Shown here piece after piece: positions 2,179 to 63,305 of a stretch of 64,000 bases of DNA (position 1 is the first letter of the stretch; each line of letters starts with the position of its first letter). Origin of the DNA: Actinomyces israelii DSM 43320. Lineage in GTDB: Bacteria; Actinomycetota; Actinomycetes; Actinomycetales; Actinomycetaceae. The position numbers were made by a program, and so were the translations under genes. The stretch lies in contig NZ_JONS01000009.1 of assembly GCF_000711965.1 (NCBI RefSeq), forward strand, positions 1 through 64,000. The letters run 5' to 3'. A model generated the notes under the pieces. The model was not told the origin of the DNA. It did not search any database and saw nothing but the letters and a program-made list of their open reading frames with translations.

Positions 2179-2249
2179 TCTCGAGCCGGAAGCGAACCGA
2201 TCTCGACGCGGAACTCGACCGATCTCGACGCGGAATACGACCGATCTCG
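2179..2249 (-). repeat. 22-bp tandem repeat array (three units) at the 3' end of nagA
   Basis: On the minus strand, three exactly 22-bp units follow each other (2249-2228, 2227-2206, 2205-2184), then a half unit. Each begins CGAGATCGGT, has four variable bases, then TTCCGC or TTCCGG and two more bases. The first unit starts three bases after the nagA stop codon. The same unit recurs at 61244, 61994 and 63262. There are no spacers, so it is not a CRISPR array. Confidence 0.85.
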
Positions 2250-2252
2250 GCG

Positions 2253-3494
2253 TCAGAGGGAGGAGGCCACGGCCTCGCCGCGGCGCAGGACGCGCACGGG
2301 CGCGAGCTCGGCGTCGGTAACCACCAGGTCCGCCCACCTGCCGGGCTCCAGGGCCCCGATCGAGCGGTCGCCCAGGATCTCGGCGCCCTGGCAGGACGCG
2401 GCGTAGACGGCATCGACCAGGTCGACCCCGCCGCGCCAGGTGGTGCGCACGACGTCGATGAGGTGCGCGGTGCCCCCGGCGATCGCGCCGCCCTCGGTCA
2501 GGCGGGCGACCCCGTCGGCCACCGTGACCGCGGCGGGCCCGAGCACGTAGTCGCCGTCGGGCATGCCGGCGGCCGCCATGGCGTCGGTCACCAGGACCAC
2601 GCTCTCCCGCCCGAGGGTCTCGAACACGTCGAGGACGATCGCCGGGGCCAGGTGGACGCCGTCGCCGATCATCTCCACGACGCACTCGCCCCGCCGGGCG
2701 GCGGCGAGGAGCTCGGGGACGGGCCCGGGGGCGCGATGGTGCATGGGCCGCATGCCGTTGAACAGGTGGGTGGCGGTAGGGCGGGCCGAGCGCACCGGCC
2801 GGCCGGCCCGCAGGCGCGCCGCGATGCGGGCCGAGGCGTCGGCCAGGCCGGCGCGCACGGGGGCCGCCTCGGAGTCGGTGTGCCCGAAGGAGGGCAGGGC
2901 GCCGCCGTCGACCAGCGCGGCCACGACGCCGTCGTCGCCGGTGATGCCGGGCTTCTCCGGGGCGATCGTCATGGTGACGACGTGCCCGCGGCCGAGCTCG
3001 ATGAGCTCGCGGGTCAGTGCCGCGTCGGGGTCGATGATGTAGGTGGGGTCCTGGGCCCCGCAGCGCTCGACCGAGACGAAGGGGCCCTCGAAGTGGATGC
3101 CGGCGAGCTCGCCCGCGTCGCACAGGTCGGCCAGGACGCGCGTGCGGGCCCTCAGGACGTCGGCGGCCGCGGTCACGCAGGAGGCGACCAGGCTCGTGGT
3201 GCCGTGGCGGCGGTGCTCCAGCACCGAGACCATGGCCTGGTCCGCGGTCTCGGCGTTGGGGAAGGACTCCCCGCCGCCGCCGTGGCAGTGGACGTCGACG
3301 AGGCCGGGCAGCAGGTATCCGCCCTCGGGGGCGACGACGGCGCCGGCCAGCAGGTCGTCCCAGCCGGCCCGCCCGGCCTCGGCCGCGGCCCCCACCCACG
3401 CAATGTGCCTCTCGGCGACGACGACCAGGCCGTCCTCGATGAGGGCGGTGGGGGTGACGACTCGCCCGCGCAGGGCCTCGGCAACACTGCTCAT
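2253..3494 (-). CDS. nagA: N-acetylglucosamine-6-phosphate deacetylase
   Basis: Cytoplasmic amidohydrolase (413 residues, normal family length) that removes acetate from GlcNAc-6-phosphate to give glucosamine-6-phosphate in amino-sugar catabolism and cell-wall recycling. Visible motifs in order: DVHCHGG (about 67-73), the metal site in HFEGPFVS (134-141), HLFNGM (243-248), DGVH (278-281) and the catalytic TDAM (303-306). The ATG at 3494 is preferred because the upstream in-frame codons lack family similarity. No nagB or transporter is adjacent. The gene ends directly at a 22-bp repeat array. Confidence 0.92.
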   Translation of the reverse strand: MSSVAEALRGRVVTPTALIEDGLVVVAERHIAWVGAAAEAGRAGWDDLLAGAVVAPEGGYLLPGLVDVHCHGGGGESFPNAETADQAMVSVLEHRRHGTTSLVASCVTAAADVLRARTRVLADLCDAGELAGIHFEGPFVSVERCGAQDPTYIIDPDAALTRELIELGRGHVVTMTIAPEKPGITGDDGVVAALVDGGALPSFGHTDSEAAPVRAGLADASARIAARLRAGRPVRSARPTATHLFNGMRPMHHRAPGPVPELLAAARRGECVVEMIGDGVHLAPAIVLDVFETLGRESVVLVTDAMAAAGMPDGDYVLGPAAVTVADGVARLTEGGAIAGGTAHLIDVVRTTWRGGVDLVDAVYAASCQGAEILGDRSIGALEPGRWADLVVTDAELAPVRVLRRGEAVASSL

Positions 3495-3648
3495 GCCCCG
3501 CAGTGTAGCCCCAGACATCTGACATCCGCCGAGGTCACCGACCTCGACGGCCTCGGCTCACGGCCTCTTCGCTCGGCTTCTCGCGGCTCCCCCGGCGCGC
3601 GCGACAGCCGGCCGGCACCGGCCCAGGCCAGCTGGGACGGCACGCTCA

Positions 3649-60032: not shown

Positions 60033-61188
60033 GACGTCACTGCGGATCGTGGCGGCGCACCGGGTCATTATCCTGGTGTACCTGCTGACGCTGTCCATGT
60101 TCGGCCTGCTCATGGGGCTGTCCGTCACGGACGCGGCCGACGTGCACGCCACCGTGGCGGTGGTCGACCGTGACGGCTCGGAGGTCTCCCGGGGCGTGAC
60201 CCGCTACCTGGGGTCTGTCGGTGAGGCCCGGCCCCTGGAGGACTCCCGGCAGGCGATGCAGGACGCCACCGCCCAGAACCGCATCTCCTACATCCTCGTT
60301 ATCCCCGCCGGTTACGGGCAGGCCCTCCAGGCCTCCGCCCGCCAGGGCGGCGAGCCGCCGGCGCTGGAGACCGTCGTCAACTACGAGTCAGCGGCCGGCT
60401 CGTTCATGGACGTGCGCACCACCTCCTACCTGGAGCAGGTGCGCACCTACATGGGGGCCGTCACCGACGACCCCGCCCGGGCCGTCGCCCTGGCCGACGC
60501 CGCCATGGAGCACACCGCGGCCGCCGAGCTGATACCCCAGGAGTCCACTCCCCTGCCGCACAGCCTCCTGGTGTACGCCCAGTTCTCCCTCTACCCGCTC
60601 ACGGCCTTCGCTATTGTGTCCGTCTCCACGCTCATGGCGTCGCTGGGGCGCCGGGCCGTGCGCTCACGGCTGTCCGCCGCACCCGTCAGCGGCTGGGAGC
60701 GCGGCCGAGGGCTGCTGGGGTCCTGCTTGGTGGTGGGCCTGGTGGGGTGGGCCTGGATCCTCTGCCTGGGGGTGGCGGTCTTCGGCCGGGGGTACCTGGT
60801 CTCCGCGGCCCCGCTGCTGGGGGTGGTCGGGGCCGCGCTGGGCGCCTACACGCTGGTGCCGGTCTCGCTGGGCTTCCTCCTGGGCCAGCTGGGGCTGGGA
60901 GAGAACGCGGCGAACGTCATCGCGAACATCGGGGGCCTGGCCCTGTCCTTCCTGGGCGGGGCGTGGATCTCGGCCGATATCATGCCCGCCGCCCTGGTCG
61001 CCGTCGCCAGGTTCACCCCCACGTACTGGGCCAACAGGGCGATGACCGGCGCCTCCGAGGTGACCTCCGTCTCCGCCGACACCGTGCTGCCGCTGCTGGC
61101 CGACTGCGGGGTGTGCGCCCTGTTCGCCGTGGCCATCTTCAGCGTGGGGCTGGCGGCGGGACGCACCCGGGCGCGCTCGGCGCTGTGA
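60019..61188 (+). CDS. ABC-2 type transporter permease
   Basis: Second permease (389 residues) of the exporter. N-terminal helix (VIILVYLLTLSMFGLLMGLS), an outside loop of about 150 residues (VHATVAVVDRDGSEVSRGVT, VVNYESAAGSFMDVRTTSYL) and a C-terminal block of about six helices (AQFSLYPLTAFAIVSVSTLM, LGALSFLGGAWISADIMPA-type region) match the ABC2_membrane_3 fold. It overlaps the first permease by 14 bases. Intact, in contrast to its partner, so a half-functional exporter could be made when the poly-C tract is out of frame. Confidence 0.88.
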   Translation: MSTFRTSLRIVAAHRVIILVYLLTLSMFGLLMGLSVTDAADVHATVAVVDRDGSEVSRGVTRYLGSVGEARPLEDSRQAMQDATAQNRISYILVIPAGYGQALQASARQGGEPPALETVVNYESAAGSFMDVRTTSYLEQVRTYMGAVTDDPARAVALADAAMEHTAAAELIPQESTPLPHSLLVYAQFSLYPLTAFAIVSVSTLMASLGRRAVRSRLSAAPVSGWERGRGLLGSCLVVGLVGWAWILCLGVAVFGRGYLVSAAPLLGVVGAALGAYTLVPVSLGFLLGQLGLGENAANVIANIGGLALSFLGGAWISADIMPAALVAVARFTPTYWANRAMTGASEVTSVSADTVLPLLADCGVCALFAVAIFSVGLAAGRTRARSAL

Positions 61189-61243: not shown

Positions 61244-61287
61244 CGAGATCGGCCCAGTTCCGCACCGAGGCCGATTCGAGGCACTGC
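61244..61287 (+). repeat. 22-bp repeat, two units, downstream of ABC permease
   Basis: Units 61244-61265 (CGAGATCGG, CCCAG, TTCCGC, AC) and 61266-61287 (CGAGGCCGATTCGAGGCACT..., degenerate) lie about 55 bases after the permease stop codon, in the same orientation relative to the gene as the nagA and esterase arrays. Confidence 0.7.
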
Positions 61288-61398
61288 CGGGTGCGGCCGT
61301 CTCGCGGGAAAGTGAGGCTCTCACGCGCTTTCAGCACCGCACTCCGTTCCACCGCACTCGGACCCCCCGGACCGATCTCGAGCCGGAATGTGATGCCT

Positions 61399-61977
61399 CA
61401 GTGCATCTGAGACACTTCGAGGGTCTTGGACGTGGTGATCCGGCGGGGATGGTCCCGGGACTGAGGGCCACGGGTGCCGGGGCGGTGGCTGCTGCACATT
61501 CGCGTGCGCTCCGCGCTGGCAGAAACCCCGGAATCATGCAGAAAAGAAGTTTCAACGGCGGCCACGATCCCGCTCCCATGTGCGCAGACCCCCCTCAGCG
61601 CACACGGGAGCCCGACGACCGAACACGACAACCAACGGGAAAGCGCACGATCCTGCGGGAAAACGGCCTCCGCCCCGCAGCGGCGCTCCTCTCCCATGTG
61701 CAACACCGGAGAAGACCACCCCTATCCCCCACGCTCACGCCTCGACACGGCCTCTGGGCGGGAACACCAGGGACCCTCTCAAGACCGGACGCCATACGAA
61801 TCCGGCACGCAGTCCTGATGAGCCCGACCCCATCATCACAGCGCAGTCGGCGAGCCGCAGCACCCGCCATTGCCTGCCGACCTCCAACACCCCACACCCC
61901 CGCAACCGACCCACCACGCACAGGGCGCCGCCTCAGACGTAGAGGACAAACACTGCCTCACTGTCTCAGATGCACTG
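61399..61977. repeat. 16-bp inverted repeat pair bounding a 579-bp segment
   Basis: CAGTGCATCTGAGACA (61399-61414) and its exact complement TGTCTCAGATGCACTG (61962-61977) face each other across 579 bp that contain hairpin element B. TCTCGAGCCGGAA occurs as a direct repeat just outside both (from about 61376 and 61989). The arrangement resembles a non-autonomous mobile element, but no target duplication was confirmed. Confidence 0.55.
61518..61701 (+). repeat. Hairpin element B, related to element A
   Basis: Reads GGCAGAAACCCCGGAATCAT then GCAGAAAAG, about 30 variable bases and a 14-bp hairpin (GCTCCCATGTGCGC 61572-61585 / 61598-61611, one mismatch) whose loop AGACCCCCCTCA matches that of element A. 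A second, weaker copy (GATCCTGCGGGAAAACGGCC...) ends in CTCCCATGTGC at 61691-61701. Stem mismatch position is the same as in A. Confidence 0.75.
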
Positions 61978-61986
61978 ACACACTAC

Positions 61987-62015
61987 AATCTCGAGCCGGA
62001 ACCGCACCGATCTCG
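61987..62015 (-). repeat. 22-bp repeat unit upstream of the esterase gene
   Basis: On the minus strand CGAGATCGGT, GCGG, TTCCGG, CT (62015-61994), followed by CGAGATT. One full unit plus a partial one. Orientation is opposite to the array at 63262, which follows the same gene, so the esterase gene is bracketed by the repeat. Confidence 0.7.
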
Positions 62016-62240: not shown

Positions 62241-63245
62241 ATGACAGCTCGGGGCAGGACCTTGAAGACTGTTGCCGGCGCAATGGCGGGCGCCGGTCTG
62301 GTAGCGGGCGCCTTCAGCGCCTTCTCCCATCTGCGCTACCAGCGCTCGGCACTGGCGACCCTGTCGGAGTACGGCACCCGGACGATGAGGCTGATGAGTC
62401 CCCGCATCTCGTTCACCGACCGGATCGCGCGAATGGCGAGCCGCCCAGAGCCCCGTCGGGACATGGCCTTCCCCATCTGGTCGCGGCTCTTCTACGACGT
62501 CGAGCGACGCGAGGGCGGCGGCATGCCCGTCTACTACGCCCGCCCGCACTCGCCGTCGGACACCGTGGTCATCTACATCCACGGCGGCGGCTACATCGCC
62601 ACGGCGTCCCTGGGCCAGGCCCTGCTCGTCGACGACCTCGCCCGCGCCACGGGCGCCGAGCTCGTCGTGCCGCTCTACCCACTGGCGCCGCACCACACGT
62701 GGGAGGAGGCGCACCGGCTCGTACTGGACCTGTACCTGCGCACCGTCGCGGAGAATCCCGGCAAGCGGGTCATTCTCATGGGCGACAGCGCGGGCGGGGG
62801 CCTGGCTCTGGTCATCGCTCTGTCGCTCGCGGAGCGGGGCGCCAACCAGCCCGATGAGCTGGTCCTGCTGTCCCCCTGGGTGGATGTCACCCACGCGAAC
62901 CCCGACATCGCGGACTACGTCGACGTCGACCCGCTCATGGCCCCTGAGCCGCTCACGGTCATGGGCAAGACGTGGGCGGGCGACACACCCACGACCGACT
63001 GGCACCTGTCCCCCATCAACGGGAACCTGTCAGCGCTGCACCGGGTCACCACCTTCGTGGGCAGCCGGGAGCTCTTCCTCCCGGACAACGCGCTCCTCCA
63101 CGACAGGCTCGTGAAGGCCGGCGTCACCTCCACGCTGCACGTCGGGGAGAACCTCAACCACGTCTACCCGATGTTCCCCTCCCCCGAGGGACGCCGGGCC
63201 CGGCGCGAGATCGCCCGGATCGTCTCCGGCCGGGCCTCTGCCTGA
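62241..63245 (+). CDS. Alpha/beta hydrolase, HSL-type esterase
   Basis: A 334-residue hormone-sensitive-lipase-family (family IV) esterase. Motifs: IYIHGGGYIATASLGQALLV (oxyanion HGGG), nucleophile GDSAGGGLA, and the late LNHVYPMFP region carrying the catalytic His; the acid is likely in the SRELFLPDN block. A short hydrophobic N terminus (TVAGAMAGAGLVAGAFSAF) could be a membrane anchor. The second ATG (62241), seven bases after GGAGGAGG, is preferred over 62235. Bracketed by 22-bp repeats. Substrate unknown. Confidence 0.88.
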   Translation: MTARGRTLKTVAGAMAGAGLVAGAFSAFSHLRYQRSALATLSEYGTRTMRLMSPRISFTDRIARMASRPEPRRDMAFPIWSRLFYDVERREGGGMPVYYARPHSPSDTVVIYIHGGGYIATASLGQALLVDDLARATGAELVVPLYPLAPHHTWEEAHRLVLDLYLRTVAENPGKRVILMGDSAGGGLALVIALSLAERGANQPDELVLLSPWVDVTHANPDIADYVDVDPLMAPEPLTVMGKTWAGDTPTTDWHLSPINGNLSALHRVTTFVGSRELFLPDNALLHDRLVKAGVTSTLHVGENLNHVYPMFPSPEGRRARREIARIVSGRASA

Positions 63246-63261: not shown

Positions 63262-63305
63262 CGAGATCGGTCGTACTCCGCACCGAGATCGGTTCACCTC
63301 CGCGT
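63262..63305 (+). repeat. 22-bp tandem repeat, two units, after the esterase gene
   Basis: Units 63262-63283 (CGAGATCGGT, CGTA, CTCCGC, AC) and 63284-63305 (CGAGATCGGT, TCAC, CTCCGC, GT) start 17 bases after the stop codon of the esterase gene. The first unit differs from the first unit of the nagA array at three positions. Confidence 0.85.

Follow-up and report, generated by a model that had tools for sequence, protein, structure and literature searches.

We consider it probable, with some reserve, that the three-unit array beside a nagA-like gene belongs to a genus-wide family of repeats which are scattered between genes, form dialects, and have a putative protein-binding site as their unit. 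The repeats of this family are dispersed, intergenic, polar, and modular. It was observed directly how many copies there are, how they are built, that they lie between genes and at 3' ends, that facing pairs are in excess, and that species have their own dialects. The window, i.e., the whole stretch of 64,000 nucleotides that was analyzed, belongs to contig C8 of the source genome (G000; 4,025,772 bases in 102 contigs). The units and their neighbors in the window are listed in Table 1.

Table 1. Repeat units, flanking genes, and a neighboring dispersed element in the 64-kb window.
Feature	Position	Strand	Remark
Three-unit array CGAGATCGGT-N4-TTCCG-N3	2179-2249	-	Decamers at 2240-2249, 2218-2227, and 2196-2205
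nagA-like amidohydrolase gene (N-acetylglucosamine-6-phosphate deacetylase family)	2253-3518	-	ORF, TIGR00221, and Amidohydro_1
ABC-2 permease gene	60049-61188	+	Gene before the single unit at 61244
Single unit, one mismatch	61244-61262	+	55 bases past the stop of the ABC-2 permease gene
Half unit TTCCG-GCT-CGAGATCGGT	61371-61388	-	Faces the + unit at 61244
Element of another dispersed family (intergenic, about 240 bp; CTCCCATGTGCG palindrome)	61471-61717		
Exact unit; a 17-bp inverted repeat adjoins the truncated next decamer (CGAGATT)	61997-62015	-	
alpha/beta hydrolase gene	62283-63245	+	Gene before the two-unit array at 63262
Two-unit array, one mismatch per unit	63262-63305	+	16 bases past the alpha/beta hydrolase stop

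Read on the minus strand from position 2249 to 2179, the array consists of CGAGATCGGT-CGTA-TTCCG-CGT, CGAGATCGGT-CGAG-TTCCG-CGT, and CGAGATCGGT-TCGC-TTCCG-GCT, followed by the bases CGAGA (2179-2183), which are five bases of a truncated fourth, closing decamer. The repeat search returned all three units as exact with spacings of 22 and 22 bp, and TRF called the array at 2196-2249 with a period of 22 and a score of 94. This agrees with the initial annotation, which had described three units of exactly 22 bp sharing the decamer and TTCCG and had placed them three bases past a nagA stop codon. The stop end of the ORF is at 2253, and the array starts three bases downstream of it, on the strand of the gene. 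The gene itself is better called nagA-like: its product matches TIGR00221 with an E-value of 2.4e-51, and the score of 174.9 bits lies below the curated cut-off of 225.65. The four bases between the two halves of the unit, described earlier as free, are not so, as a few forms (CGTA, CGAG, TCAC, TCAG, CCGG, and others) dominate instead. No Rfam structured RNA scored above the gathering score in the 64-kb window. Judging by their translations, overlapping short ORFs at 32-698 give the impression of a broken transposase gene, and out-of-frame pieces at 1690-1920 give that of a broken GntR-type regulator.

The unit was then counted in the whole source genome. At up to three mismatches it occurs 357 and 358 times on the two strands, against 31 and 29 for the reversed pattern, and at up to one mismatch 200 and 214 times (414 in total), against none for the reversed pattern. 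These genome-wide copies rule out a local duplication and confirm a dispersed family. The 22-bp spacing holds as well, being found in 317 of the 344 decamer pairs of this genome. A protein-coding repeat was also ruled out, since the 22-bp period is no multiple of three and the arrays lie between genes. Among 213 genomes of the family, TTCCG-type units are plentiful elsewhere only in A. massiliensis 4401292 (G018; 633) and A. gerencseriae DSM 6844 (G011; 305), while all others have at most five.

For the anatomy of the arrays, 2.72 Mb of DNA were read (579,560 bases of the source genome, 520,000 of A. gerencseriae, and 1,620,000 of A. massiliensis). For the detection of arrays, the decamer was allowed one mismatch, and genes were called with an in-house codon-usage script. 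The sample contained 138 arrays (34, 20, and 84, respectively), 136 of them with at least two decamers, and no tandem pairs of the reversed decamer. Exact decamers numbered 398 in arrays, 20 as single copies in genes, and 23 as single copies between genes; the single genic ones were three times commoner than in permuted controls (20 versus 6.6). A short motif that is present in hundreds of copies and has dialects differing between species would also suit the DNA uptake sequence of a competent bacterium. Uptake sequences, however, lie mostly in coding DNA and are not known to form tandem arrays, whereas here only 4 of the 138 arrays overlap a called gene and the decamers in arrays greatly exceed the single genic ones, which makes this explanation very improbable.

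The order of elements is the same in the three species: a pyrimidine-rich leader is followed by a decamer and then by one to eight repeats of a 12-bp spacer plus a decamer, with up to nine decamers per array. The spacer of the TTCCG-type arrays carries a second motif of its own, TTCCG. Pyrimidines make up 71%, 69%, and 66% of the 14 leader bases from -18 to -5 in the three species, compared with 50-52% in control windows after stop codons, and at least 12 of the 14 are pyrimidines in 26 of 136 arrays but in about 1% of the controls. This excess is independent of the orientation of the array to genes. The leader ends in TTCGC or CTCGC in 42 of 136 arrays. The other end was examined in an initial set of 106 arrays; of the 104 having two or more decamers, 84 end on a closing decamer that has no TTCCG (within one mismatch) after it.

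Across 315 units, positions 6-8 of the decamer are invariant, positions 4 and 5 are conserved in 301 and 304 units, and spacer variation is limited to forms like YSNN-TTCCG-NNY, the invariance of the decamer being partly by construction owing to the one-mismatch detection. As this selection inflates invariance, unselected middle decamers lying between exact decamers 44 bp apart were used as a check. The exact decamer was present in 129 of 143 cases and differed by one change in the other 14 and by more in none, which supports the invariance. In the spacer before the middle decamer, CCG is 96-100% conserved, while at six of the twelve positions the commonest base stays below 65%. The pattern of conserved and variable parts noticed earlier in three units is thus upheld in the larger sample.

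Single arrays mix several unit types. Stretches of 32-54 nt are shared at >96% identity over the full overlap by 72 array pairs, the flanks of which are unlike (33% identity upstream and 36% downstream over 30 nt); as full overlaps at each unit shift were compared, longer shared inner stretches may be missed. In A. massiliensis, two unit classes, with G or C at position 12, alternate along the arrays (84 versus 72 expected, p 0.001), and no alternation was seen in the small numbers from the other two species. The final bases of the spacer show an R-Y pattern, for which base pairing was considered and rejected, as transitions explain it equally well and folding gives no support. Recombination between decamers that are almost identical, or copying from one to another, may let the arrays grow and mix one unit at a time.

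The TTCCG pattern had suggested a restriction of the family to three species. This proved wrong, as a search without the spacer motif revealed dialects throughout the genus. In an order-wide scan of 396 genomes, decamers 22 bp apart (up to two mismatches) occurred in four of the seven genomes of the genus drawn, and no genome outside the genus had more than two such pairs. Pairs of CGARNYCGGK with a gap of 5-35 number at least 28 in 19 of 49 Actinomyces species, the reversed control giving at most six in each, and pairs at exactly 22 bp number at least 10 in 17 of the 49 species and at most one in 164 other genomes of the family. Among the matches listed, the TTCCG spacer type is found in G000, G011, and G018, the spacer CGAAAATAGGAG in G010 and G017, the spacers CGAAGTGGCGAT and CGAAAACGCCAT in G008, the ATAACC type in G012 and G025, and the spacer ACATCCTGACCT in G013 and G027. 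Among the pairs listed for G014 the period is 23 bp, and none of its 252 pairs is at 22 bp. Two dialects within one genome were seen in G013 and G025, the latter having both a 22-bp and a 23-bp one. Most decamer pairs are not at 22 bp in G012, G029, G030, G036, G040, and G043.

The decamer class and the fixed spacing are therefore kept while the spacers are replaced, and dialects can coexist, as in dispersing repeat families. Since related species keep the decamer class and the spacing but have unrelated spacers, the decamer is taken to be the recognized part. The sharing of one architecture (a conserved decamer with a fixed 22- or 23-bp period) by about 17-19 species with unrelated spacers separates the constrained part from the free one and makes the question of a reader protein testable. 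The arrays might also serve as typing markers for oral Actinomyces. The earlier argument that a period of two helical turns puts all decamers on the same face of the DNA fared less well: the 22-bp spacing stands, but the argument is weakened by the 23-bp dialects of G014 and G025.

Some further occurrences were noted in the course of these searches. An identical 54-base stretch with decamer-like repeats is present at G004:C8:75378-75431 and G008:C3:9710-9763, although G008 otherwise has another dialect. A phage origin was rejected after viral contigs had been scanned with the patterns of three dialects, which matched 0, 3, and 0 stretches, respectively; two of the three stretches are near-copies of each other with a palindromic decamer occurring twice. 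In the third, L269:2717-2830 of the viral-contig collection, ACCGGTTTCG is repeated at 22-bp spacing, possibly as a distant cousin or by chance.

The persistence of arrays at the same place was examined in 219 orthologous intergenic comparisons, some loci entering more than one species pair. Arrays were present in both species in 6 comparisons, in one only in 17, and in neither in 196, while 0.8 shared places would be expected by chance. At the six shared places, the unit number and the spacers differ and 50 of 53 decamers are exact under the one-mismatch selection. This speaks for either a constraint on the decamer or homogenization, which the data do not separate. No clean insertion with target duplication was found; in the eleven pairs that were aligned, the intergenic sequences had diverged so far that no junction could be recognized.

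The placement of the arrays relative to genes could be determined for 126 of them. Arrays occupy 39 of the 311 intergenic regions between convergent genes, 52 of the 1111 between codirectional genes, and 14 of the 313 between divergent ones. The convergent regions are 2.7-fold enriched over the others (66 of 1424; odds ratio 2.95, Fisher 1e-6). Sense arrays start at a median of 45 bp after the stop codon, and within 100 bp of a stop between codirectional genes there are 27 sense and 9 antisense arrays (p 0.004). This sense bias is not explained by pure tolerance. The mapping against gene ends proposed in the initial annotation thus found a preference for intergenic 3' ends; neither a loss of the 22-bp periodicity nor a lack of this preference, which would have pointed to a simple local duplication, was seen.

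Neighboring arrays also have a preferred mutual orientation. They lie <1 kb apart in 25 cases, of which 22 are inward-facing pairs (+ -), two are outward-facing (- +), and one has both arrays in the same direction (- -). Four facing pairs of A. massiliensis have a gap of exactly 7 nt and can form hairpins, two of them with perfect 32-bp stems, and three of the four lie between convergent gene ends, 14-46 bp away. Among the remaining facing pairs, the enclosed core either measures 110 bp, in three homologous copies, or has a length of 152-656 bp; several of the latter cores are homologous and carry the 240-bp element (approximate length) that contains CTCCCATGTGCG palindromes.

The position past stop codons and the hairpins would suit an RNA-level element, in which an array in the 3' UTR ends transcription or protects the mRNA end. 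One of the 7-nt-gap pairs, when folded, gave z = -9. The unpaired arrays, however, fold like shuffles (mean z of -0.25, -0.62, and -0.14 in the three species; 91 arrays), and 44 of the 126 placed arrays are antisense to a codirectional pair or lie between divergent genes. An RNA role for ordinary arrays is thus disfavored, and we hold the RNA-level explanation as a whole to be improbable, while the hairpins of paired arrays could act on RNA.

A 22-bp bipartite unit in inward-facing arrays is also reminiscent of transposon ends of the Mu, Tn7, and IS21 type. According to this explanation, a transposase would bind the tandem 22-bp sites, and solitary arrays would be orphan or miniature elements; the 22 facing pairs around cores of 7, 110, 152, or 305-656 bp, several of them mutually homologous, are in line with it. 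R6K-type 22-bp iterons and MuA/TnsB sites are likewise two-part direct repeats of about 22 bp with the same tandem spacing as the arrays. Unlike iterons and transposase end arrays, the units studied here occur by the hundreds in the chromosome, and no MuA/TnsB-type domain was found in the species with arrays. The Mu-transpos_C domain was detected in 1 of 49 genomes, that of G021, a species without arrays, which has six decamer pairs within the gap range of 5-35 and no pair spaced by exactly 22 bp. The eight genes lying between five facing pairs 1-4 kb apart are unlike transposases, as judged by eye from their first 90 residues, and a conserved outer TG..CA end or a target duplication was not noticed in the inspected flanks. 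We therefore consider transposon ends a quite improbable explanation, even more so than the RNA-level one.

The initial annotation had also proposed mapping the copies against the replication origin and terminus. In A. massiliensis, dnaA is at C1:565,369, and the GC skew, which is weak and noisy, changes its sign at dnaA and near C2:450 kb. A contig of the source genome bridges C2 to the far end of C1, and the remaining scaffold joins were inferred from skew and length; the terminus thus rests on the weak skew and the bridging contig. A search with an actinobacterial dif motif gave no match. Within 800 kb of dnaA there are 72 arrays in 39 segments (9.2 per 100 kb), compared with 12 arrays in 42 segments beyond this distance (p 9e-13). 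Among intergenic regions of at least 100 bp, an array is present in 0 of 191 around the terminus versus 39 of 299 in C1:0-1.3 Mb. The source genome sequence syntenic to the terminus carries 6 arrays in 275 kb, and its comparison stretches carry 16 arrays in 120 kb of one and 9 in 120 kb around dnaA. In G014, whose dnaA lies 2.00 Mb into a genome of about 3.1 Mb, 22 arrays are in the origin half and 16 in the terminus half among the forward-strand arrays listed, which derive from 100 of 120 matches and reach 2.81 Mb. The origin-half enrichment is strong in A. massiliensis, but there is no clear bias among the G014 arrays listed, and a general origin-half rule was dropped after this result.

Such a distribution raises the question of chromosome organization, with a dedicated nucleoid protein (or gyrase) binding the gene-end arrays and structuring the origin-proximal half, like Noc/SlmA sites or the gyrase-binding BIME-2. 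The depletion near the terminus in A. massiliensis resembles that of Noc/SlmA sites. Noc/SlmA binding sites are present in fewer copies than the arrays, and, unlike them, the arrays are tandem and show no clear depletion among those listed for G014. The enrichment between convergent genes also favors an organizing role, and the gyrase sites of E. coli BIME-2, which lie between genes according to the accessible part of the source (PMC6379681), offer a parallel. On the other hand, apart from the lack of a clear bias among the G014 arrays listed, the array density beside dnaA in A. massiliensis is below that at 400-600 kb. Having fewer than 28 pairs of CGARNYCGGK (gap of 5-35) in 30 of 49 species, the family cannot have a role essential to the genus, and two dialects per genome (G013, G025) fit one protein poorly. 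A chromosome-organizing role is possible but rated unlikely, and it may not be general.

Among known repeats, the STAR elements of Staphylococcus aureus are the closest in form. As far as the available text of PMC3532100 describes them, they share with the arrays a short conserved direct-repeat motif, recurring spacers, variable-copy intergenic arrays, plentiful occurrence in some species of a genus and rarity in others, and a function and spread that are unexplained. They differ in having a 14-bp motif and spacers of at least 40 bp, whereas here the motif is 10 bp, the spacers are 12-13 bp, and the units number hundreds; dialects among 17-19 species, the 3'-end bias, and the facing-pair bias further distinguish the Actinomyces family. 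The motif CGAGATCGGT differs from the STAR consensus given in the same text, T(G/A/T)TGTTG(G/T)GGCCC(C/A), and the arrays are an analogue of STAR, not a member.

The REP/BIME elements with RAYT are the closest in lifestyle. In the portions available of PMC2817692 and PMC3733652, they appear as hundreds of intergenic copies with facing pairs, species-specific unit families, and mosaics with other short elements, all of which have counterparts here. The arrays are likewise high-copy and extragenic, as shown by the 414 units of the source genome and the 4 of 138 arrays overlapping genes. Unlike REP/BIME, the unit is a direct repeat without a palindrome, and long hairpins arise only from facing pairs; the GTAG/CGTC tags in the accessible part of the REP paper (PMC2817692) are not the motif found here. 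RAYT-mobilized REP/BIME were rejected, as no Y1 transposase (PF01797) was found in the 49 genomes of the genus, with positive control matches in 5 of 14 known genomes, and as the unit is not palindromic and unpaired arrays fold like shuffles. Membership in either class thus fails on motif, palindrome, or transposase. CRISPR, which has repeats of 24-48 bp and non-repetitive spacers according to the available part of PMC3733652, was ruled out by the 10-bp repeat and by 12-bp spacers recurring between arrays. Dispersed intergenic repeats are a known kind of element; no description of such repeats in Actinomyces was found in the literature searched, mostly outside subscription papers, and the dialect-forming Actinomyces family looks undescribed.

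Returning to the reading as a dispersed repeat family, the unit would be a putative bipartite recognition site, in which a DNA-binding protein would contact the decamer in every dialect and the spacer motif in a manner specific to the dialect. New arrays would be spread by some agent and would survive where they are least harmful, between genes and just past stop codons, and a bound protein may form a boundary between converging transcription units. The preference for an array of protein-binding sites over a decaying duplication, expressed in the initial annotation, is borne out insofar as the repeat is not a local duplication and its decamer is sharply conserved; judged from the sequence, the binding is putative. 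The findings are accounted for equally well by the lifestyle of a dispersing repeat and by a dedicated function in binding. A more far-reaching proposal, which we put forward tentatively as possible rather than probable, is that a DNA-binding system of Actinomyces, so far undiscovered, docks on the arrays. One protein domain would contact the decamer and another the spacer motif, the protein would be aligned along the array, and site and protein would have co-evolved into dialects; the arrays would serve throughout the genome as gene-end boundaries between converging transcription units, and in some species these boundaries would be concentrated in the half of the chromosome around the origin.

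The window itself contains further units besides the array at the nagA-like gene (Table 1). At up to three mismatches, 11 matches were counted, compared with a mean of 3.2 in shuffled sequences, none of 100 shuffles reaching 11. The element of about 240 bp with the CTCCCATGTGCG palindrome is a family separate from the 22-bp arrays. At least 12 scored hits each were obtained in the source genome and in A. massiliensis, where its relatives are often located between facing arrays, and weak ones in six other species; none was found in A. gerencseriae, although this species carries arrays. Beside the truncated decamer of the exact unit, an element of about 580 bp (61398-61978) is bounded by a perfect 17-bp inverted terminal repeat (TCAGTGCATCTGAGACA / TGTCTCAGATGCACTGA), and the codon-usage caller found no gene inside it. 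It looks like a non-autonomous insertion targeting or neighboring arrays. An end sequence related to that of this element also adjoins an array in A. massiliensis.
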